Assembly (NCBI RefSeq): GCF_003096635.1
Contig: NZ_QEKV01000006.1
Location: forward strand, 1 to 64,000
DNA from: Ezakiella coagulans
GTDB taxonomy: Bacteria > Bacillota > Clostridia > Tissierellales > Peptoniphilaceae
Direction: 5' to 3'
DNA length: 64,000 nucleotides
Position numbers and translations under genes: made by a program. Under the pieces are notes generated by a model, which made no database searches, was not told where the DNA came from, and saw nothing but the letters and a program-made list of their open reading frames with translations. Position 1 is the stretch's first letter. Each line of letters opens with the position of its first letter. Positions 854 through 54,441 of this stretch are shown here, piece after piece.

Positions 854-1813
854 ATGATAAATATTAAAATAAAAGTAAATGACGCTAATCAAAGAGTGGA
901 CAGATTTTTGCAAAAGCTTATGCCAAATGCGGGCAAAAATTTTCTTATGCGAATGCTCAGAGAGAAAAAGATAAAAGTTAATAAAAAGAAATGCGAGCCT
1001 TCATATCTTCTTTTAGAGGGTGATGATGTTACAATTTATTTCAGCGATGAAACTTTCGAAAAGTTTTCGAAGGGAAGACGTGAGGTATTTAATAAAACAA
1101 AGATCGAGATAGTTTATGAAGATGAAAATGTCATTATAGTAGATAAACCGGCGGGTCTTCTTTGCCATGTTTCAAACAATTTGAAAGAACCGAATGTAGT
1201 TGACGGTGTTATAAATTATCTTCGTGAAAAGGGCGAGTATAATCCACGCGATGAGCATTCTTTTGTTCCGGCCATTTCAAACAGACTGGATAGAAACACT
1301 GCGGGACTTGTGATTGCCGCAAAAAATGCAAACACATTGAGAACGATGAATGAACTTATAAAAAATCGTGAAATACAAAAACTTTATCATGCTATTGTGC
1401 GTGGGAAAATGGATTTTAACGGAATCTTGAAGAATTCATTCGAAAAAAATGAAAAGAAGAATATGGTTAAGGTCACAAAAGATGGTGAAAAGAGTATGGA
1501 GTCGGTCATCACGACTATAAAGAGTGCGAGCGATTTTTCACTTGTTAAAATCGAACTTATAACCGGCCGCACCCACCAAATAAGATTGCAGCTGAAGCTT
1601 TTGAAACATCCGATTATTGGTGACAACAAGTATGGAGACATTGGATTTAACAATTCATTAAACATAAAGGACAAGAATCATCAAAGACTCGTTGCGGGCG
1701 AGCTTGTGTTTCCAAAACTTGAGGGCGATTTAGAGTCGCTTTCCGATAAGAGTTTCAAGTCTAAGTATTTAGAAGAGCTAATCGATGATTATAGGAGTTT
1801 AACGGATGAATAA
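854..1813 (+). CDS. RluA-family 23S rRNA pseudouridine synthase
   Basis: A 319-residue RNA-modifying enzyme that isomerises uridine to pseudouridine in large-subunit rRNA or tRNA. An N-terminal S4 RNA-binding domain (about 1-65, including a lysine-rich KKIKVNKKKCEPS stretch) precedes the catalytic domain. The motif NRLDRNTAGLV carries the catalytic aspartate, with Asn where His is usual (HRLDxxTSG). TGRTHQIRLQL and HPIIGDNKYG are the later family motifs. The length and two-domain form fit the RluC/RluD group, but the exact target site cannot be read from sequence. The gene overlaps the next by 8 bases, so the two are probably translationally coupled. Confidence 0.9.
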   Translation: MINIKIKVNDANQRVDRFLQKLMPNAGKNFLMRMLREKKIKVNKKKCEPSYLLLEGDDVTIYFSDETFEKFSKGRREVFNKTKIEIVYEDENVIIVDKPAGLLCHVSNNLKEPNVVDGVINYLREKGEYNPRDEHSFVPAISNRLDRNTAGLVIAAKNANTLRTMNELIKNREIQKLYHAIVRGKMDFNGILKNSFEKNEKKNMVKVTKDGEKSMESVITTIKSASDFSLVKIELITGRTHQIRLQLKLLKHPIIGDNKYGDIGFNNSLNIKDKNHQRLVAGELVFPKLEGDLESLSDKSFKSKYLEELIDDYRSLTDE

Positions 1814-3005
1814 AATTTATAAATTGTTTGTTTTGAATATGGTTATAATGTTTGCATTCGGTTGCAAGAAGAATAGCGGTACCGAAGTTAAAAAAATTGT
1901 GCTTGACTCCGGAAGAAAAGTAAGCACAAAGAATTCCGACTCTAATAAATCGGACTCTACAAAAAAAGAGGAAACAAAAACAAAGGAAATGGAAAAAACT
2001 TTGAACGAAAAACTTGATAGATATATAAAAACTGTGGACAAGAAGTCCAAAGTCGAAGAGATGATTTGCTCCGGAATTTATGGAACAAAGTACGACAAAA
2101 AAATGGAGGATTTCTTAAAGGCGACAAAGCCGGGGTCAATAATTCTTTTTAAAAGAAATATTTCATCTGACAAGCAACTAAAAGCACTCGTGCTTGACAT
2201 AAGAGCACTTTATAAAAATATGAATGTACATGAGCCGTTTATATTTGTCGACGAAGAGGGCGGAAGGGTTGATCGTTTGAAGTCGGTTTACGGCAAAACA
2301 AATTCACCAAGCTGGTATTTTAAAAACAAACCGGCGACAGATTACGGAAAGAGAATAACAGATGCTTTAAAACATTTTGATTTTAACGGAGGCTTTTCAC
2401 CGGTGCTTGACACTCAAAAACCGGGAAACGGCATTATCGGCGACAGGGCGTTTTCGGATAACTATGAGTCGGTTGCAAAATACGCGAGAGATGTGATTGA
2501 TTATATGAACAAAAATAATATCGTGAGTGTGGGGAAACATTTTCCGGGGCACGGTGCAACTTATGTTGATTCACACAAGGCACTTCCGATTATAAATAAA
2601 TCATACGATGAACTTTTAAATACAGATTTAATTCCGTTTAAAAAGAATTTCGACATTCTTCGTGGGGTTATGGTTGCACATATTTTGGTGCCTAAGGTGG
2701 ACAATTTGCCTGCAAGTCTTTCAAAGGTATGGATGGGGAAAATTCGAGATGAATATAAATTTGACGGCATTGTTTTTTCAGATGACCTTACGATGGGCGC
2801 ACTTGATTCATACGGTGACTTGAAGACAAGGGCAAGAAAATTTGTTGAAGCAGGCGGGGATATTCCACTCGTTTGCCACAAAAATGAAGAGATGGCGGGA
2901 GTTATATCTGAACTATTGAAGGTTGATGACAGTCGGATAGATGACTCATATAAAAGAATTATAAAACTAAAGCTTGAGATAGGTCTTATTTCAGAGATTA
3001 AATAA
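1806..3005 (+). CDS. nagZ: Lipoprotein beta-N-acetylhexosaminidase (GH3, NagZ-like)
   Basis: A 399-residue glycoside hydrolase family 3 enzyme expected to remove N-acetylglucosamine from peptidoglycan fragments outside the cell. The N-terminus is a lipoprotein signal ending in the lipobox FAFGC, followed by a Lys/Thr/Ser-rich spacer to about residue 65. Catalytic features: VGKHFPGHG, the loop DSHKALP (Asp-x-His of the NagZ general acid-base dyad) and GIVFSDDLTMGAL, whose aspartate is the nucleophile. Surface-anchored NagZ is known from B. subtilis, so the arrangement is normal for a Gram-positive. The start ATG lies inside the end of the pseudouridine synthase gene. Confidence 0.9.
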   Translation: MNKIYKLFVLNMVIMFAFGCKKNSGTEVKKIVLDSGRKVSTKNSDSNKSDSTKKEETKTKEMEKTLNEKLDRYIKTVDKKSKVEEMICSGIYGTKYDKKMEDFLKATKPGSIILFKRNISSDKQLKALVLDIRALYKNMNVHEPFIFVDEEGGRVDRLKSVYGKTNSPSWYFKNKPATDYGKRITDALKHFDFNGGFSPVLDTQKPGNGIIGDRAFSDNYESVAKYARDVIDYMNKNNIVSVGKHFPGHGATYVDSHKALPIINKSYDELLNTDLIPFKKNFDILRGVMVAHILVPKVDNLPASLSKVWMGKIRDEYKFDGIVFSDDLTMGALDSYGDLKTRARKFVEAGGDIPLVCHKNEEMAGVISELLKVDDSRIDDSYKRIIKLKLEIGLISEIK

Positions 3006-3036
3006 TTTATATTGTGACTAAATTTAATGACTAAAA

Positions 3037-3066
3037 TTGATTTTTATCCAAGTTTTGGGGTATACT
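3037..3066 (+). promoter_or_regulatory. Promoter for the two-component operon
   Basis: TTGATT (3037-3042) and TATACT (3061-3066) have an 18-base spacer. The expected start is near 3073, about 24 bases before the response-regulator ATG. Confidence 0.6.
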
Positions 3067-3096
3067 AGTATTAAGAAAGATTTTTGAGGTGTAATT

Positions 3097-3771
3097 ATGT
3101 TAAAAATTTTAGTGGTAGAAGACGAAACAGCGATTAGAAGATTTATAAAAATAAATCTTGAAAGACAAGGTTTTGATGTTGTTGACGTGGAAAGTGGAGA
3201 AGAGGGGCTCGATGCATTTCTTGATTTTCATCCTGACATTGCACTTCTTGATGTTATGCTTCCGGGAATTTCAGGTCTCGATGTGGCAAAAAGAATTAGA
3301 GAACTTGACAATAATGTCGGCATCATAATGCTCACAGCAAAGAGTCAAGATGTGGACAAGATTTTGGGTCTCGAAAGCGGTGCAGATGATTATATGACAA
3401 AGCCGTTCAATCCGACCGAACTCATTTTAAGAATAAAGAGTCTTGCAAGAAGGGTAGAAACAAAGGATGTCCCTGATACATTGGAAGACGATGTATTTAA
3501 GCTCGATCAAAACACCAGACAATTCTTCAAGAATGGAGTTTATGTTGAACTTACCCCGACTGAATTTGCGATTATGGATCTCTTTATGAGAAATCCGCAC
3601 AAAGCTTTTTCAAGAGATGAACTACTTGATTTGATTTGGGGCCGAGATTTTGTCGGCGACTCAAAGATTATTGACGTAAATATAAGACGTATTCGTTCGA
3701 AAATCGAGGACGATGCTTCTGAGCCGGAATATATAAATACTGTATGGGGGCTAGGCTACAGATACAGATAG
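3097..3771 (+). CDS. OmpR/PhoB-family response regulator
   Basis: A 224-residue DNA-binding regulator. The receiver domain (about 1-115) has the acidic pair E8/D9, the phospho-acceptor D52 in LLDVMLPG, the conserved Thr of MLTA and Lys of TKPF. The C-terminal winged-helix domain (about 130-224) has the family hallmarks LTPTEFAIMDLFMRNP and VNIRRIRSKIE...VWGLGYRYR. A TGAGGTG ribosome site precedes the ATG. It is followed after 15 bases by its likely partner kinase and then by a lipoprotein, so the three form one transcription unit. The signal sensed and the regulon are unknown. Confidence 0.93.
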   Translation: MLKILVVEDETAIRRFIKINLERQGFDVVDVESGEEGLDAFLDFHPDIALLDVMLPGISGLDVAKRIRELDNNVGIIMLTAKSQDVDKILGLESGADDYMTKPFNPTELILRIKSLARRVETKDVPDTLEDDVFKLDQNTRQFFKNGVYVELTPTEFAIMDLFMRNPHKAFSRDELLDLIWGRDFVGDSKIIDVNIRRIRSKIEDDASEPEYINTVWGLGYRYR

Positions 3772-3786
3772 TTACAGGTATAAGCA

Positions 3787-5202
3787 ATGAAGAAAAGCTT
3801 TAGATTTTATCTTATTTTAAATTTAACTATAATTATAATTTTTGCAATTTTTATTTTAGAGATTGCTGTTATTTTTAGTGTAAAAAATTATTTTTACAAG
3901 GATGCAACTTCAAAATTAAAATCTCAAGCTGAACTGAATTTGGGCTATTTATACAGATATATCGACTTTTCAAAAGGCATTAAGAATGTTGTTTTAGACG
4001 ATGCCTTTACATTTTTTCAATATAATACAGGCCATTTGGAGCTGATGGATGAAGAAGCAAATCTTCTTTTAAGCACAATTGGCCTTACGCATACTTACTT
4101 AAATAAAACGGAAATTTTAACCGGGATAAAAGAAAGCGGTTATTACACGTCTATTGATAAATTTTCATTTAGTGATTCAAAAATCGTTAGCGTGGCTCTC
4201 CCCATAACTTATCAGAACAGAATGATTGGCATAAGTGTGTTTCAATCAAGTCTGAAAGAGGCGGACGAGTCTATTTTTAATGTTTTGAAACTTGTTATCA
4301 CAATAGGAGTTGTAGTCGCTATTATTGCTATAATTATGGCTGTTATAGCAAGTGATATGATTGTTAAGCCGATTTATAGGCTCAAAAAATACTCTGACGA
4401 GCTTGCAAAGGGCAATTATAACTACAAATACAATCCGCAAGGACCGCTTGAAACTGTTAAACTCGGTGAAAGTATGAACTATATGAGGGATGAAGTTTTG
4501 AAGCGTGATGCGGTTAAAAATGAATTTATCGCAAACGTTAGCCACGAGTTAAAGACGCCATTGACATCTATAAAGGGATGGGCTTACACTTTAAAAGAAG
4601 ATTCTTCAGATGAGGAACTATTAAAAGACGGCCTTAACATAATCGAGCAGGAAAGTGATAGACTTGCTCAAATGGTAAATGATCTTTTGGACTTCAGTAG
4701 ACTTTTAAATAAAAAAGTTAAACTCGAAAAGAAAACTATTGATATGGTTCAGTTTTTGCAAGCACTTGAAATGCAATTTAAGCCACGTGCAATAGCTGAA
4801 AATAAAAACTTCTATATAAAATCAAATGTAAAGAGTTTAAAATATTTAAACGATCCGGACAAGCTTAGACAAGTGTTTATAAATCTTTTAGACAATGCAT
4901 TTAAATTCACATCCGAAGATGGTACGATAAAGATTGATTTAAAGGATATGGGTGAAAATTTTGTTGTTTCAGTAATTGATGACGGTGACGGAATTCCTGA
5001 AAAAGACAGAGAGCATGTTTTTGAAAAGTTTTATAGGGGAGACACCAAGAAAAGTCACACTGGAATCGGGCTTTCGATTGTACATCAAATTGTCAAACTT
5101 TCAGGCGGCGACATCAAGCTCGTGAGTGAAGTTGGAAAGGGCACAAGTTTTATAATCACTCTTCCGAAAGTTTTTGATGAGGAGAAATGTGATGAAGAAT
5201 AA
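3787..5202 (+). CDS. Membrane sensor histidine kinase
   Basis: A 471-residue kinase that should phosphorylate the response regulator just upstream. Two membrane helices (about residues 8-32 and 165-188) flank an extracytoplasmic sensor of about 130 residues. A HAMP linker follows, then the H-box FIANVSHELKTPLTSIKG, the N-box NLLDNAFKFT and G-boxes DDGDGIPEKDREHVFEKFYRG and TGIGLSIVHQIV. All catalytic motifs are intact. The sensor resembles a single PAS-like fold in length, but I cannot assign a ligand. Its 3' end overlaps the lipoprotein gene by 11 bases. Confidence 0.93.
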   Translation: MKKSFRFYLILNLTIIIIFAIFILEIAVIFSVKNYFYKDATSKLKSQAELNLGYLYRYIDFSKGIKNVVLDDAFTFFQYNTGHLELMDEEANLLLSTIGLTHTYLNKTEILTGIKESGYYTSIDKFSFSDSKIVSVALPITYQNRMIGISVFQSSLKEADESIFNVLKLVITIGVVVAIIAIIMAVIASDMIVKPIYRLKKYSDELAKGNYNYKYNPQGPLETVKLGESMNYMRDEVLKRDAVKNEFIANVSHELKTPLTSIKGWAYTLKEDSSDEELLKDGLNIIEQESDRLAQMVNDLLDFSRLLNKKVKLEKKTIDMVQFLQALEMQFKPRAIAENKNFYIKSNVKSLKYLNDPDKLRQVFINLLDNAFKFTSEDGTIKIDLKDMGENFVVSVIDDGDGIPEKDREHVFEKFYRGDTKKSHTGIGLSIVHQIVKLSGGDIKLVSEVGKGTSFIITLPKVFDEEKCDEE

Positions 5203-6619
5203 ATTTATATTTTTTATTATTCTCATCTCTATTTTCTCAATCGGTTGCAAAATAAAACAGAGTGGATCCAGTGATATAATAAATATAACTTACCCAATTA
5301 AAGGCAAATATACGGTTATAAATAAGTTCAATCAAAATGGAGAAAAAATAAGCTTTCAAAACAAGAATATGGTTTTCTATAAAGATCGTGCTTTTATTTG
5401 CGGAAAAGATTACAAGAGTGTTCGCTATATGACAAAAAAAGTGAGCATTAAGGATTATTTAGTTAACAATTACAATTTAAATAATTTACGTGATTACGAC
5501 AAAGCTGAGGATATTATCGTTTTAAGTGTATATTCCTCGGAAGATTATGTTTGCGATATTGCAGTTCTAGAAGATACAAAGATTCTCGTGAATGAGAACT
5601 ACAATCTTTATGAAGCACAATACGAAGGCAAAATAGATGAAAATGATTACAATTTTATTGTGAATAAACGTAAAATTGAAAGAAATGCAGAACCAAATGA
5701 AACTTTTAAACCGACGGCACTCTTTCTAGGACTGCGTGAAGATGACGGCGAAGACCCGGAATACAAGACATTATTTGTATACAGAGATACAGAAGGGCTT
5801 CAAGTTTATAAGACGAAGGGTATTTATCTTCCGAAAAATAATGGATATTTGAATATTGATGTTAGGACGGAGCCGATAGGTGGTATTCTTACAAATCCTA
5901 TAACGGCAACATTTAAAAAGCATTTTTATGAATTTGAGTCCAAGAACTTAAATATAAAACATAATGATAAAAGTAAGTTTTATGGCAAGAAAAAAATTAA
6001 AATAAATTATGTAAATCCGCAATTTTTGTCATATACATTCGAGACTTTAAACTATGGAAGGGAACTTTTTAAAAACAGTATTTCAATACTTCCTATCGAG
6101 TCATCGAATTTTAAAAGTCCGATAACACTTGACCAAGTTTATCAAAAGAATTCGCTTGAAGTTATAAAAGAGGATAGTAACAATGTACTCTACAACGAAC
6201 TTTATTTTGATAAAAGGAATATGGGTATCATCAGACGAAACGGATATTGGGTTTTGATTGTAAGGCTGTTTGATAAAAGCGATGGCAGAGTGAAAAATGT
6301 GGACATTTCAATTAGAGATGTGAACGCTAGAATACTGTTAAATGAAAATCAACAGTCTATTTCGATAAGAGATATCAATAAACTTTTTTCGAATGTTCGC
6401 GATTTCACCACAAGTTCAATAAGAAATCTTGCTATTGTAAGGACAACAAATTCGTTTAAAATTGTAAATTTCAAAAATGTTCAGCTTGATGTTTCGGAAG
6501 TTTTAAACATTGACACAGAAAATGCGGCGATGTTTATGAATATGTGGTCATATGGCTCAGAGGCGGAAACACATTTGTCAAACGTTAAAAAATCAAAGAT
6601 TTGGAAACGCTTTTACTAA
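5192..6619 (+). CDS. Large lipoprotein of unknown function linked to the two-component system
   Basis: About 475 residues. I place the start at the ATG at 5192, not at the earlier TTG/ATG at 5174/5177, because AGGAG at 5180-5184 is correctly spaced for it and the protein then begins with a clean lipoprotein signal (MKNKFIFFIILISIFSIGC). The mature protein is rich in Lys, Asn and Tyr, shows no transmembrane segment after the signal, and matches no family I recognise. The 11-base overlap with the kinase gene suggests coupled translation. It may modulate the sensor or be needed for the response the system controls. This is inference from position only. Confidence 0.7.
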   Translation: MKNKFIFFIILISIFSIGCKIKQSGSSDIINITYPIKGKYTVINKFNQNGEKISFQNKNMVFYKDRAFICGKDYKSVRYMTKKVSIKDYLVNNYNLNNLRDYDKAEDIIVLSVYSSEDYVCDIAVLEDTKILVNENYNLYEAQYEGKIDENDYNFIVNKRKIERNAEPNETFKPTALFLGLREDDGEDPEYKTLFVYRDTEGLQVYKTKGIYLPKNNGYLNIDVRTEPIGGILTNPITATFKKHFYEFESKNLNIKHNDKSKFYGKKKIKINYVNPQFLSYTFETLNYGRELFKNSISILPIESSNFKSPITLDQVYQKNSLEVIKEDSNNVLYNELYFDKRNMGIIRRNGYWVLIVRLFDKSDGRVKNVDISIRDVNARILLNENQQSISIRDINKLFSNVRDFTTSSIRNLAIVRTTNSFKIVNFKNVQLDVSEVLNIDTENAAMFMNMWSYGSEAETHLSNVKKSKIWKRFY

Positions 6620-47836: not shown

Positions 47837-48314
47837 TCTTTCAAAACGCGTTGTAGACTTAGCAAAAAGAAAAAATTTAACGATTTCAACTGCAGAAAGC
47901 TTCACAGGCGGGTATATAGCAAAGTCTCTTACAGATATTCCCGGTTGTTCAAACGTTCTTGTTGCAGGGCTTGTTACTTATATGATAAAAGCAAAAGAAA
48001 AATTTTTGGGAGTTAAGGATGAAACCATAAACACGTACACTGTCGTTTCAAAAGAAGTTGTATGTGAGATGGCGCTTGGCGCCCTAAATACTACAGGCTC
48101 AGACATCGCAATCGCAACTACAGGATATGCGGGACCGGGTGACGACCCCGAAACAGGAAAATTTTTTATTGGAATCGCATTCAGAGAAGGCGGAGCTATT
48201 AGAACTATTTATAAAGAGTTTTATATTGACAACACAAGGGAATTTATTCGAGAAACCGCCACAAAAATAGCATTAGAAAAAGTATATAAAATAATAAATG
48301 GAGGATTAAAATAA
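47817..48314 (+). CDS. cinA: CinA C-terminal-domain nicotinamide-nucleotide amidase
   Basis: 165 residues from a GTG at 47817, preferred because GGAGGAA (47807-47813) is correctly spaced; a TTG at 47805 would overlap that site. Only the amidohydrolase domain is present ([41 protein letters not shown]). The N-terminal molybdopterin-like domain of full CinA is absent, as in PncC. It should convert NMN to nicotinic acid mononucleotide. One-base overlap with recA. Confidence 0.9.
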
Positions 48315-49393
48315 TGAGTGAAAAAGAAAAAGCTTTAGAAAAAGTAATGGAGCAAATAACTAAACAATTCGGTAAAGGTTCAATTATGAAGCTTGGCGAC
48401 AAGACTTCAATGCAAGTTGCTTCTATTCCTACAGGAAGTATTGATCTTGACATAGCTCTTGGAATTGGTGGAATTCCAAAGGGGAGAATTATTGAAGTAT
48501 ACGGTCCTGAAAGCAGCGGTAAAACAACTGTAAGTTTACACATGATTGCAGAAGTTCAAAAGCTTGGCGGAACTGCCGCATTTATCGACGCTGAACACGC
48601 TTTGGATCCCGCTTATGCTAAGAATTTAGGAGTTAATGTAGACGAACTAATTATTTCTCAACCGGACTATGGTGAACAAGCTCTTGAAATTACAGAATCA
48701 TTGGTAAGAAGTGGTGCTGTTGATATTATTGTAATAGACTCTGTTGCAGCTCTTGTGCCTAAAGTTGAAATAGATGGAGAAATGAGCGACCTTCAAGTTG
48801 GAGCACACGCAAGACTTATGAGTAAAGCTATGAGAAAATTGACAGGTGCAATTAATATTTCAAAAAGTACCTGTGTGTTTATTAACCAAGTCAGAGAAAA
48901 AGTTGGTGGCTATGGAAATCCTGAAGTAACAACAGGCGGTAGAGCACTTAAATTCTATTCAACTGTAAGACTTGAAATCAGAAGAAAAGAAATTATAAAA
49001 CAAGGCGATGAAATGATCGGCTCAAAAACGGTTGCAAAGGTTGTAAAAAATAAAGTTGCTCCACCTTTTAAAACTGCTGAGTTTGATATTATGTACGGGA
49101 CAGGTATTTCAAAAGAAGGGGATATTCTTAATGTTGCCGTTAAAAACGATATCATTAAGAAAGCCGGAAGCTGGTTCTCATATAATGGTGAAAACATTGG
49201 ACAAGGAGCCGAAAATTCGAAGGCATGGCTCAGAGATAACCCTGAAAGTATGTATGAGATAGACTCAAAAATAAGAGAAATGTATAACTTAAGACCTATT
49301 CCAAAGGAAAACTATATGAGTCATCTTAACAGAGAAGACGAGGTTATAGAACAACCAGATGATGTTGAAGTAACAGAAAGTGAAGATAAATAG
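48314..49393 (+). CDS. recA: Recombinase RecA
   Basis: 359 residues with GGAGG upstream. Walker A is GPESSGKTT, Walker [14 protein letters not shown]. The monomer interface is near the N-terminus, and loops L1/L2 are at [17 protein letters not shown]. The acidic C-terminus ([19 protein letters not shown]) is usual. Its modulator RecX is at 7443. No SOS box was seen here, as the gene sits inside an operon. Confidence 0.97.
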
Positions 49394-49405: not shown

Positions 49406-50380
49406 ATGAAATTTTTGTACTTTACAGATACTCATATCAGAGCTAACTCTCCGAGTAAACGAAAAGATAATTATGTAGAGTCTTTATTAGAAAAATTTCA
49501 AGAAATTAAAAATATAGGTTCTGATAATGATGTTGATTTTTACGTTCATGGAGGGGATCTCCTTGACAGGCCTGACGTTCCGATTCAAACTATAAGACGG
49601 TTTGTAAGAGTAATGCAATCATTTAAAAGACCTATATTTTTTGTACCCGGTAATCACGACATATATGCTTACAATGTTGAAAGCTTAAATAGAACCGCTT
49701 TGCCACTTCTTGATGACTTTGGACTTCTATCTATTATGAGCGACACGTCTCCTGTATTATTCACTATAGACGATGTTTCAGTTGCTCTGCATTCCGCATC
49801 TTACAACGGAGATTTAGACACGGATATTGGAAGAGAAAAATATATAGTTAAGGAAAAGCTTGCCGATTTTGATATTCTTTTTGCACATGGCATGCTTCTC
49901 ACTAAACCATTTAAAAATATTTCTTACACATTAATCGACGATATAAAACACACAAAAGCTGATCTAACTATTTGCGGACATTATCATACCGGATTTTCAA
50001 TACAAAAAGTCGATGATAAATATTTTTATAATCCCGGCTCTGTGGCAAGGGTTTCAGCTACTGAAATTGAACTTAAAAGAAAGCCGAAAGTATCAATTAT
50101 AACGCTCGAAAAAAATAAAGATATTGCGATTGAAGATTTTTATTTAAAATCAGCTAAGCCTGGGGAAGAAGTGCTCGATAGGGAAGCGATTTTAAGAGAT
50201 AAGGAAGAAAATCAAAGACTTGAACTCCAAAAGTATGAGATTGAAAAGATTGATTTTGATAGAATTATGGATATAAGGGAACTTTTAAATAAAATTGATA
50301 TAACAGAAAGCCTGAATGAAGAAGTAAGAAACAAGGCAATCGAACTCGTCACGGAGGCACAAAATGAACAAATCGACTGA
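49406..50380 (+). CDS. Metallophosphoesterase, SbcD/Mre11-like nuclease
   Basis: 324 residues. The five phosphoesterase motifs are complete: FTDTHIR, GGDLLDRPD, VPGNHD, FAHGM and GHYHTG. This fits a two-metal nuclease of the Mre11/SbcD or phage gp47 type. The C-terminal part (about 250-324) is helical, where Mre11-type proteins contact the ATPase. It starts 12 bases after recA and overlaps by 17 bases the gene for a Rad50-like ATPase, so it is probably the nuclease of that complex. It is divergent from classical SbcD. Confidence 0.88.
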   Translation: MKFLYFTDTHIRANSPSKRKDNYVESLLEKFQEIKNIGSDNDVDFYVHGGDLLDRPDVPIQTIRRFVRVMQSFKRPIFFVPGNHDIYAYNVESLNRTALPLLDDFGLLSIMSDTSPVLFTIDDVSVALHSASYNGDLDTDIGREKYIVKEKLADFDILFAHGMLLTKPFKNISYTLIDDIKHTKADLTICGHYHTGFSIQKVDDKYFYNPGSVARVSATEIELKRKPKVSIITLEKNKDIAIEDFYLKSAKPGEEVLDREAILRDKEENQRLELQKYEIEKIDFDRIMDIRELLNKIDITESLNEEVRNKAIELVTEAQNEQID

Positions 50381-51833
50381 TAATAGAAAAATATCCACAA
50401 TTATCATTAAAAACTTCCAATCACACAGACATACTGTTTTAAATTTAGATGAGCACGTTAATGTGATTCTGGGCTCTTCAGACGTTGGTAAAACTGCAAT
50501 TTTGCGTGCACTTGGATGGGTGTTTTTTAATGAACCACAAGGGACAGCGTTTATAAGAGCAGGTGAAACCTCCACTTCAGTTGAACTGATATATAGTGAC
50601 GGCTATAGTGTTAAGAGAATCCGAAATAAAAAGTTCAACGGCTATCATATAAATCATCCCGATTTTGATGAGCCGAAAAAACTATCCGGTTTCGGAAGCT
50701 CCGTTCCTGAAGAAATTCAAGAGATTACGGGAGTTAGAAAGTTTGAAATCGCAGATAAAATTGAATCACCTATAACATATCAAACACAGCTCGAAGGTGC
50801 GTTTCTTCTTTCTGAATCGAGCATTAAAAAAGCCAAGGCAATCGGTGCAATTTCAAATGTAAATATTATAGACAGAGCAATTCAGATTGCAAATTCCAAT
50901 ATTAAAGACTTTAGAAAAAATATAAATACTTCCGAAGAAGCCTTGAAAAATTCTGAAGAGCAAATAAAAGAGTATGATAATCTTGACGAAAGAAAACAAA
51001 ATCTTGAAAAAGTTAAAGATTTGTATTCTGAACTTATTCAAAAAAATAAAATGAATGAAAATCTTTCAGTTTTAAATCAGAGGTTGGATAATAATATAGA
51101 ACGAATTAAAACTGAAGAAAATACAATTAAAAGCTTGAGTTTTGTTGACGAAACATATAAAACATACTATAAATTAAACTCTCTTTTAATTAAAGGGGCA
51201 GACTACTATAACAAGTTTATGAATCTAAGAAATAACGAAGCATTATATGAAACAAATATGAAAATTATTAATAATACGAACTTCTTAGAAGATGCAAATC
51301 CGAAGTTCGAAAATGTTGTTTCTTTGATTAGAAGATTTAATACGCTTACAAATATTAATAAGGATCTTGAAAGGGTAGAAGAGTCGCAAAAGAGAAATGA
51401 AGAAATTATATCCGGATCTAAGAATTTAGACAAAATATATGATACTGTAAAATATACACAAAATATTTTAAATAAATTTCAATTGTTACAAAACCTTCAT
51501 AATAGACTAGTTACTATAGAAAGAACTATAGCTGAAGTAGAAAAGGATATAGAACCTCTATTTATTGAAAACTTGTCAAAATATTTAAATTACGTAATAA
51601 ATCTCGACGAAAAGTTTAATGACTACAATACTCTATATAACTCACTTTTTTCAAAAAATTCAGATATTGAATATTCACAAAATATTATAAATAATTTAGA
51701 TAATGAAATAAATGAAAAGCTTAATTCTTATCTAGAAGTGTTACAAAAAAGCAATATTTGTCCAATGTGCGGTTCAAAGATAACCGAAGAACATATAGAA
51801 AAAATTAGAAAGGAATACACAAATGAACTATGA
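50364..51833 (+). CDS. Rad50/SbcC-like ATPase, N-terminal half ending in a zinc-hook motif
   Basis: 489 residues. The SMC-type N-terminus TIIIKNFQSHRHTVLNLDE leads to the Walker A loop GSSDVGKTAILRAL (residues about 35-48). About 300 residues of coiled coil follow. Near the C-terminal end lies CPMCGSKI, which resembles the Rad50 zinc hook (CxxC). The normal descending coil and the Walker B half are missing and are encoded by the next two ORFs, each in a new frame. CACGGAGG precedes the start, inside the nuclease gene. Confidence 0.85.
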   Translation: MNKSTDNRKISTIIIKNFQSHRHTVLNLDEHVNVILGSSDVGKTAILRALGWVFFNEPQGTAFIRAGETSTSVELIYSDGYSVKRIRNKKFNGYHINHPDFDEPKKLSGFGSSVPEEIQEITGVRKFEIADKIESPITYQTQLEGAFLLSESSIKKAKAIGAISNVNIIDRAIQIANSNIKDFRKNINTSEEALKNSEEQIKEYDNLDERKQNLEKVKDLYSELIQKNKMNENLSVLNQRLDNNIERIKTEENTIKSLSFVDETYKTYYKLNSLLIKGADYYNKFMNLRNNEALYETNMKIINNTNFLEDANPKFENVVSLIRRFNTLTNINKDLERVEESQKRNEEIISGSKNLDKIYDTVKYTQNILNKFQLLQNLHNRLVTIERTIAEVEKDIEPLFIENLSKYLNYVINLDEKFNDYNTLYNSLFSKNSDIEYSQNIINNLDNEINEKLNSYLEVLQKSNICPMCGSKITEEHIEKIRKEYTNEL

Positions 51834-52065
51834 AGAACGAGCAAATCAAATAAAAAAAGAGCTTGATCAGGCGTCTCAAAAAAGAGATAGGGCACAGGGA
51901 ACTCTTGACAGTTTAAAAGCTCAAAAAGAAGAAATCATTAAAGAGATTATAAATGCAGGCTCAACTCCTGAAACAATAAAAGCTGACCTCGATAATATTG
52001 CAAAAGAAATCGAAGAAAAGCTTCAAATCTGTGAAAAACTTATAGAAGAAAACAATGCAAATTAA
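51823..52065 (+). CDS. Small coiled-coil protein between the two ATPase halves
   Basis: 80 residues, almost wholly predicted coiled coil (heptads from about 5 to 45 and 52 to 78, broken by INAGSTPET). The start lies 11 bases inside the end of the upstream ORF with AAAGGA before it. The stop lies 11 bases after the next start. It may stand for the descending arm of a Rad50 coil made as a separate chain. No family recognised. Confidence 0.75.
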   Translation: MNYEERANQIKKELDQASQKRDRAQGTLDSLKAQKEEIIKEIINAGSTPETIKADLDNIAKEIEEKLQICEKLIEENNAN

Positions 52066-52780
52066 TGAAATTAAAGAATTCATAGATGATACAAATAAGA
52101 AGATTATAAGCGATGAAGTAAAAAAGGAGATGCTTGAGAAAAAGATTGACGAACTTAAAAATACAATCTCAGATGCGAACAACTCGATTGAACTCTATAC
52201 ACAAACAATTCTTCTTTTGAATCATGCAATTCAATATGCGAGACAGCAATCTAAGAATATAATAGAAAATATAGTCACTCTTTGTCTAAGATATGTTTTT
52301 AAAACAAATATACGTTTTATTATTAAAGATGAGATGTCTCAGAAATCAACCGGTATGGAATTCTATGTAACAGATGAAAATGGAAATATTGACAATCTTA
52401 CAAAGCCTGAAGACTCAAGAGGTGGGGGAATTGTTGACGTTGTTAGTCTTGGGCTACGTCTGTCAATTTCTGAAATTCTTACACGAAATGGTATCCTAGG
52501 ACCAATTATTCTCGATGAGCCTGCAAAATATGTTTCTAAAGAATATATACCTAATGTAGGTCTATATCTTAAAGGTTTTTCAGATGAATACGACAGACAG
52601 ATTATTATGGTTACTCACGATGACTATCTGTCTGCAATAGGAGACAGCTGTTTTGAACTTGAGCAAACTGACGGCGTTACAAAGATTGTAAAAACCAAAA
52701 ATGGAGTAATTGAAGAATCTTCAATAGAAGAATTAGTTGATTTGGATGAAGATGAAAATATTGAATTTGAAATCCAATAA
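52055..52780 (+). CDS. Rad50/SbcC-like ATPase, C-terminal half
   Basis: 241 residues. A coiled-coil N-terminus (about 1-75) leads to an ABC-type head: signature region SRGGGIVDVVSLGLRLSISE, Walker B GPIILDEPAKYVS and the H-loop MVTHDD. There is no Walker A, which is supplied by the 50364 ORF. An acidic tail ends the protein. The start overlaps the small coil gene by 11 bases with only a weak AGAAGA ribosome site, so coupled translation is likely. Confidence 0.85.
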   Translation: MQINEIKEFIDDTNKKIISDEVKKEMLEKKIDELKNTISDANNSIELYTQTILLLNHAIQYARQQSKNIIENIVTLCLRYVFKTNIRFIIKDEMSQKSTGMEFYVTDENGNIDNLTKPEDSRGGGIVDVVSLGLRLSISEILTRNGILGPIILDEPAKYVSKEYIPNVGLYLKGFSDEYDRQIIMVTHDDYLSAIGDSCFELEQTDGVTKIVKTKNGVIEESSIEELVDLDEDENIEFEIQ

Positions 52781-52899: not shown

Positions 52900-54441
52900 A
52901 TGCCAATTGTTTATTATTTTCTGATTTTCATATTTTCCTTAGGTTGCGGTATTTTTGTAGGTTATTTATTGCGAAAAAAAGTTTCCGAAAAAGCCATCGG
53001 TTCTGCTGAAGAAGAAGCACGTAGAATTCTTGAAGATGCAAGAAAAGATGGAGAAGCGGAAAAGAAAGAATTAATCTTAAATGCTAAAGAAGAAATTCAA
53101 AAATCTAAAGATGAACTTGAACTAGAATCTAAAGATAGACGAAGAGAATTCCAAAGTACAGAGAAAAGACTTATAAGTCGCGAAGAAACCCTGGACAGAA
53201 AAATTGACAATTTACAAAAAAAGGAAGATAAGCTAAATCAAAAGATTAAAGATATCGAAGATAAAAATTTGCGTGCAGACGAATTGGTTAAATCACAAGA
53301 ACAAAAACTTGAAGAAATCTCAGGTCTTACTCGTGAGGAAGCAAAGAATATTCTTATCGCCGATCTTGATCATGAAATGACACAAGAAACGGCTATTCGT
53401 ATAAGACAAATGGAAGACAAAATCAAGGATTCCAGTGATGAAACAGCAAGAGAAATTATATCTTCTGTCATTCAAAGAGTCGCATCTGACTATGTTAATG
53501 AAACAACAGTCACAGTTGTCGATTTGCCGAATGATGATATGAAAGGTAGAATTATAGGTAGGGAAGGAAGAAATATAAAAGTTCTAGAAAGCCTTACAGG
53601 TGTTGATTTAATTATTGATGATACACCGGAAGCTGTTGTACTTTCAAGTTTTGACCCAATAAGGAGAGAAGTTGCAAGACTTTCTCTAACCAGACTTATT
53701 CAAGATGGAAGGATTCAACCTGCACGAATTGAAGAAACTGTTGAAAAGGCAAAAGAAGATGTTAACAAGATTATTACTGAAGCCGGTAATAATGCTGTTA
53801 TTGAAACTGGATTACATGGTATTAATCCGGAACTTCAAAAGTATTTGGGACGACTCAAATATAGAACAAGTTATGGCCAAAATGTACTCGACCACTCAAT
53901 AGAGGTTTCACACCTTGCCGGTATGATGGCAGAAGAAATTGGAGCCAATGTAAGAGTTGCAAAAATGGGCGGGTTGCTTCATGATATCGGAAAGGGTATC
54001 GATAGAGAATTCGAAGGAACTCACGTAGAACTTGGAGTTAATCTTGCTAAACGTTACAAGATAAGTAAAGAGGTTATACACTGTATAGAGGCTCACCACA
54101 ATGATGTTGAACCTCAATCAGTTGAAGCATTCCTTGTGCAAGCTGCTGACGCTATAAGTGCGGCAAGACCTGGTGCAAGACGCGAAACTCTAGAAAGTTA
54201 TATCAAACGTCTAGAAAAACTTGAAGAGATTGCAAACTCATTTGACGGTATCGAAAAAACTTATGCAGTTCAAGCAGGACGTGAAGTAAGAATTTTGGTT
54301 AAACCTGATAAAGTTTCTGATGATGAAATGACAGTTATGGCACACGATATTGCTAAGAGAATTGAAGAAGAAATGCAATATCCTGGTCAAATAAAAGTAA
54401 ATGTAATTAAAGAGGTTAGAAAATCTCATTTAGCAAAATAG
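52900..54441 (+). CDS. rny: Ribonuclease Y
   Basis: A 513-residue membrane-bound endoribonuclease that starts mRNA decay. One N-terminal membrane helix (about 4-25), a long coiled coil (about 30-170), a KH domain ([21 protein letters not shown]) and an HD domain with [12 protein letters not shown] and the motif around HNDVEP. AGAAAGGAG precedes the ATG. It has its own promoter and terminator, so it is expressed independently of the recA unit. Confidence 0.96.

Follow-up and report, generated by a model that had tools for sequence, protein, structure and literature searches.

Does a Rad50 ATPase have to be made as one polypeptide? Rad50 is usually described as a single chain, in which a long arm couples the ATPase head to a zinc hook. 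The question is raised by a locus of Ezakiella coagulans, a gut-type anaerobe of the Bacillota (RefSeq assembly GCF_003096635.1; 1.81 Mb, 20 contigs, 99.85% complete), where four overlapping open reading frames (ORFs) follow recA on the + strand. They span positions 49,406 to 52,780 of the window, the 64,000-nucleotide stretch of contig NZ_QEKV01000006.1 (positions 1 to 64,000) that was analyzed here. The first ORF encodes an Mre11-like nuclease and the other three encode the pieces of one Rad50. This split Rad50 is a real, conserved arrangement in many Bacillota and phages, with recA and the Mre11-like nuclease adjoining. It shows that the two halves of the Rad50 ATPase need not share one chain.

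The four proteins and their catalytic residues

The first gene, MPE (49406..50380, 324 aa), encodes an Mre11/SbcD-like metallophosphoesterase that matches Metallophos in Pfam (1.3e-14). All five Mre11 catalytic motifs are present (DTH, GGDLLD, GNHD, AHG, and GHYH), and D8, H10, G49, G50, D51, D54, N83, H84, D85, H161, G191, H192, and H194 are invariant in 30 relatives. The PDB was searched with profiles built from the relatives' sequences, here as for the other pieces, and the best matches of MPE are to Mre11 (1ii7, 4e-9).

The second protein, HEADN (50364..51833, 489 aa), carries the Rad50 N-lobe, a repeat arm, and the zinc hook. Both AAA_23 (2.7e-12) and Rad50_zn_hook (2e-6, residues 452-489) score above the Pfam cut-off. 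The PDB profile search leads to Rad50 N-halves (3aux, 6e-16), while the best PDB match found by Foldseek for the AlphaFold model (mean pLDDT 78) is the Rad50 N-lobe 1f2u_A. In the Walker A motif GSSDVGKT (50472..50495), G37, G42, and K43 are invariant in 32 sequences. The hook motif CPMC (residues 466-469, 51759..51770), within CPMCGSKI, is predicted to bind zinc; its CPxC residues C466, P467, and C469 are invariant in the 32 aligned sequences. Along its residues 414-479, the HEADN profile matches the hook structure 1l8d of P. furiosus Rad50, and it also aligns to the hook structure 6zff.

The third protein, COIL (51823..52065), is an 80-residue helical protein with a conserved turn in its middle (LGxxPE type, GSTPE here). 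Its profile found composition-type matches in the PDB and nothing else. The C-lobe follows as HEADC (52055..52780, 241 aa), recognized by alignment and by the PDB profile match to Rad50 C-halves (3qkr_B, 2e-10); in Pfam no match above the cut-off was obtained. HEADC contains the ABC signature RGGG, a variant of LSGG (52418..52429; G123-G125 and D128 invariant), the Walker B motif PIILDEP (52502..52522; D154 and E155 invariant), and the invariant H-loop histidine H188 in VTH (52616..52618). A Walker A motif was not found in it. The Rad50-type ABC head is thus complete across two chains, with Walker A and Q-loop in HEADN and signature, Walker B, and H-loop in HEADC. In PHROGs, each of the three Rad50 pieces has a family of its own: phrog_16465 for HEADN (8e-56), phrog_18563 for COIL (5e-5), and phrog_15167 for HEADC (3e-50).

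The coordinates and motifs that an earlier note on this DNA had read from the four ORFs were all borne out. That note had given every junction an overlap of 11 bases, which holds for HEADN/COIL and COIL/HEADC; MPE and HEADN overlap by 17. It had also placed the cut at the hook. The hook lies 20 residues before the end of HEADN, so the cut falls past it, and a second cut sets off the 80-residue piece.

Conservation of the split

Of 61 relatives, 35 were found to carry HEADC, and exactly these 35 also have HEADN. In a class-wide sample, HEADC occurs in 21 of 291 genomes with a clean score gap (>265 bits versus <43), and 48 of the 299 genomes in a phylum sample possess the split set. Where chromosomal loci were fetched, the order is recA-MPE-HEADN-COIL-HEADC-rny. 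In the relatives' loci, HEADN and HEADC are always separate ORFs with COIL between them, and no ORF containing both lobes was found among 173 loci (in this and the other locus counts, some genomes were fetched twice). A Rad50 is expected to carry its two lobes on a single chain with the arm between them; wherever an arm-bearing locus was examined, the lobes were encoded by separate ORFs. The recurrence in 35 of 61 relatives excludes chance. It had been proposed that this is a natural split Rad50 whose head is joined from separate chains, and the conserved separation strongly supports this proposal.

Proposed mechanism

It is very likely that the locus encodes an Mre11-Rad50 (SbcDC-type) DNA-end-processing machine with Rad50 made as three polypeptides, four chains in all. 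We infer how this split machine assembles and in what stoichiometry, as well as its zinc binding, its activity as nuclease and ATPase, and its part in repair. Stalk, zinc hook, and the N-lobe with Walker A and Q-loop would come from HEADN, and the C-lobe with signature, Walker B, and H-loop from HEADC. Each ATPase head would be completed by the non-covalent docking of HEADC on HEADN. Two such heads would sandwich ATP and gate an MPE dimer, and two HEADN hooks would be joined via zinc at the tip of the stalk. COIL may serve as an 80-residue helical accessory to the stalk or hook. The assembled machine would trim or cut DNA ends for RecA in place of SbcCD.

Two observations weigh against this assignment. 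MPE and HEADC score below the equivalog cut-offs for SbcD (TIGR00619) and SbcC (TIGR00618), respectively, so the function may have diverged; many canonical clostridial SbcC proteins likewise fall below the curated SbcC cut-off. In addition, a model of the chains fused by stop readthrough (L096) was weak, with a mean pLDDT of 64 and a poor C-lobe. In this weak model, COIL appears as a putative two-helix protein.

The modular arm

The arm of HEADN (residues ~217-451, 51012..51716) consists of about five tandem helical repeats of 47 residues, as judged from its autocorrelation and from integral copy-number classes. The arm profile, built from 88 sequences, shows autocorrelation peaks at 47, 94, and 141 residues. 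Among chromosomal loci, the distance from NFQSH to CxxC is 356, 398-404, 444-453, or 496-497 residues (3, 13, 87, and 2 loci, respectively), and comparable classes of 404, 452, and 500 are seen in viral loci. In the 449 class, the hydrophobic pattern is repeated five times and Pro and Gly are nearly absent. The lag-47 signal reaches z 3.0 in split chromosomal arms and 4.1 in split viral arms, whereas canonical SbcC arms from the same order show none (z -0.24 and -0.03).

The lengths tell the same two groups apart. Rad50 is characterized by an antiparallel arm with matched strand lengths, and in canonical SbcC the N- and C-arm lengths are indeed matched (r=0.97). In contrast, C-side lengths stay constant (sd 4) across the split set and N-arm lengths vary (sd 25), with r=0.26. 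Since the C side is constant and the N-arm changes in whole 47-residue steps, the arm probably differs from an ordinary antiparallel hairpin that has simply been nicked. We infer that most of the stalk is unpaired with the C-terminal pieces COIL and HEADC.

Can the locus nevertheless be read as a conventional Rad50 with simple nicks, in which HEADN runs up the antiparallel arm, COIL and HEADC run down, and the mechanism is unchanged? The pieces come in the canonical order with the hook in its canonical position, the cut lies just past the hook, and both COIL and the N-terminus of HEADC are helical. This reading is nonetheless unlikely, given the unmatched lengths and the 47-residue periodicity that canonical arms lack; moreover, the C side is not long enough to pair along the whole N-arm. 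The earlier note had pictured a usual coiled-coil arm severed at its hook; the repeats and the unmatched lengths suggest another build.

A tentative proposal, somewhat better placed than the nicked hairpin, is that the stalk is made of HEADN only, by stacking of its 47-residue units, for instance as a parallel homodimer or as a self-stacked helical solenoid; COIL would then be a partner of constant length near the hook or base. If true, such a HEADN-only stalk would have a head-hook geometry unlike that of canonical SMC/Rad50 proteins, and this would explain how the C-lobe was able to turn into a protein of its own.

Arm-less fused relatives

Does an unbroken form of the gene exist among relatives? 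It does, but only where both arm and hook have been lost. In six genomes of one family (G383, G630, G631, G633, G635, and G636), MPE, N-lobe, and C-lobe are united in one chain of 686-787 aa; these single-chain forms are located at L251 (G383:C6), L281-L284, and L287. Five more genomes (L268-L271, L285) encode MPE followed by a compact ATPase of 355-419 aa in which N- and C-lobes are fused (554 aa from stop to stop in one). The CxxC hook, the repeat arm, and the COIL gene are absent from all 11 arm-less loci. Because these unbroken relatives are without arm and hook, they do not show the locus in the window to be broken.

The fused chains are informative in two further respects. As MPE, N-lobe, and C-lobe occur in one polypeptide, the three proteins belong to one complex. 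COIL is present in the arm-bearing loci of the core family, and ten neighboring arm-bearing genomes from the same search keep CxxC, COIL, and separate lobes; set against the 11 arm-less loci without COIL, this ties COIL to the arm. Beside the single-chain form at L251 lies a 1166-aa ORF that resembles AddB by sequence.

Exchange with SbcC and repair context

The genomic neighbors of the split set are conserved. On the + strand, recA (48314..49393) lies directly 5' in chromosomal loci, and rny (52900..54441), encoding ribonuclease Y, lies 3' in most of them. With recA as neighbor and with invariant catalytic residues, Mre11-Rad50-type DNA-end processing is the best reading of the locus. Judged from the synteny with recA, the role in break repair suggested earlier is plausible.

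Full-length SbcC was found in 1 of the 35 genomes that carry the split set, but in 16 of the 26 that do not (p 3.5e-7). The corresponding counts in the class sample are 1 of 21 and 122 of 270 (p 1.3e-4); both statistics ignore phylogeny. By this distribution the split set replaces SbcC, which speaks for a functional replacement. One sampled relative (G013; L053, L230) has the split set together with a full-length SbcC of 921 aa.

A complete SbcC elsewhere in the window's genome, which would have put the split set in doubt, was not found. Three candidates for a second SbcC were rejected, all without a hook: SMC (C4), a 578-aa ORF of RecN length (C6), and a YhaO/YhaN-like pair (C7). The last pair (L074, 1095-3724 on G000:C7) comprises a 345-aa metallophosphoesterase and a hook-less 531-aa ATPase with a hydrophobic segment. 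As for AddA, matches in the same genome were all sub-threshold and fall in two ORFs, 720 and 609 aa long.

The same genomic context bears on the idea that the locus encodes an SMC-like defense system or another non-repair ATPase. The split set is abundant both in phages and on plasmids, and HEADN gives weak PADLOC matches to LmuB, AriA, and GajA (best 1.6e-11). All of these lie within the common ABC N-lobe; the LmuB matches are partial and confined to it, and LmuA has no match among the four locus proteins. A defense role is improbable in view of the fixed, vertical-looking recA-rny locus in many families, the exchange with canonical SbcC, and a best structural match to Rad50 instead of LmuB.

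Phage versions and the junctions

In phages and prophages the order of the genes is HEADN-COIL-HEADC-MPE (43 loci), and unrelated genes can intervene between the pieces. An entire DnaE stands between HEADN and COIL in L200. An AP2 or HNH-like ORF with Pfam support occupies this position in L164 and L165, and HNH/AP2-like ORFs without such support do so in L162, L166, and L169. In Microbacterium phage Magritte (L080, L296), the N-lobe (gene 155), whose protein is without a CxxC hook, and the C-lobe (gene 2) are ~93 kb apart. In L187, L199, and L205, MPE is fused to HEADN and HEADC is still separate. Of 8 divergent viral loci in which no COIL match was detected, 7 have a helical ORF of 79-84 aa directly upstream of HEADC.

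In an unrooted tree of HEADC, the 80 sequences from chromosomes fall into one group, together with a single viral contig, amid deeper viral branches. This fits a single entry into, or a single origin at, the recA-rny locus. Given the HNH/AP2-like ORFs of some phages, it may be speculated that the insertion of a homing endonuclease could have started the split.

Could the three frames be joined during translation? Programmed frameshifting or recoding would yield one full-length Rad50, and the short overlaps in the window, with a +1 offset at both junctions, speak for it. Over 32 loci, however, the two junctions occur in all three frames (17/12/3 and 13/14/5), and their gaps vary from -23 to +82 and from -14 to +33 bases. 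Neither a recoding signal nor a common error explains a split with such variable junctions. A fixed frame at a conserved slippery site was not found, and the intervening phage genes and the distant lobes of Magritte also speak against recoding. Recoding is refuted as a general mechanism and is very improbable in the window. A decayed or mis-sequenced sbcC, suggested by three ORFs where one is usual, is refuted with near certainty by the same split in relatives across the 61-genome and phylum samples and by the invariant catalytic residues.

Frameshift errors are likewise excluded by the conservation and the varying junction frames. The earlier note had reached the same conclusion from the overlaps themselves. 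That argument is weak, since in other species the junctions show gaps or overlap differently, although its conclusion is right.

Relation to known systems

The split Rad50 with its nuclease shares with bacterial SbcCD and archaeal Mre11-Rad50 the Mre11-like nuclease, the ABC head, and the CxxC hook, and its distribution over genomes is nearly complementary to theirs. It differs in its three-chain Rad50, the 47-residue repeat arm, the unmatched arm lengths, and the RGGG-type signature. The top matches of HEADN and HEADC are to the catalytic domain of P. furiosus Rad50 (1f2t/1f2u, chains A and B), in which separate lobes form the head. That protein is a laboratory construct, split artificially and without arm or hook; the split in the window is natural, and arm and hook are kept.

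Fusion proteins of Mre11/Rad50 (SbcDC) were described by Yoshida et al. 2011 (PMC3175470), who report for the fusion of Bacillus phage 0305phi8-36 that a segment of the P-loop NTPase "was not observed". L199 (218,948 bp, 1633-5666) is putatively this phage, with equal size as the sole link. In contrast to the published fusion, L199 has the MPE-HEADN fusion plus the C-lobe as a separate gene ~1 kb downstream (4947-5666).

PHROGs lists phrog_16465 as "exonuclease", phrog_18563 as unknown, and phrog_15167 as "ATPase", and does not record them as one Rad50. In the literature searched, with subscription papers outside its coverage, no paper describing a split Rad50 or SbcC came up, and the arrangement appears to be undescribed so far.

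The separate lobes, the modular arm, and the arm-less single-chain relatives form a ready experimental series, in which the contributions of a covalent arm, of the hook, and of arm length to DNA tethering and nuclease gating can be tested. The separate C-lobe gene would account for the "missing" ATPase segment of the Bacillus phage Mre11/Rad50 fusion, if the putative identity of L199 holds. For the Bacillota, the split set accounts for the apparent lack of SbcCD in many of their genomes.

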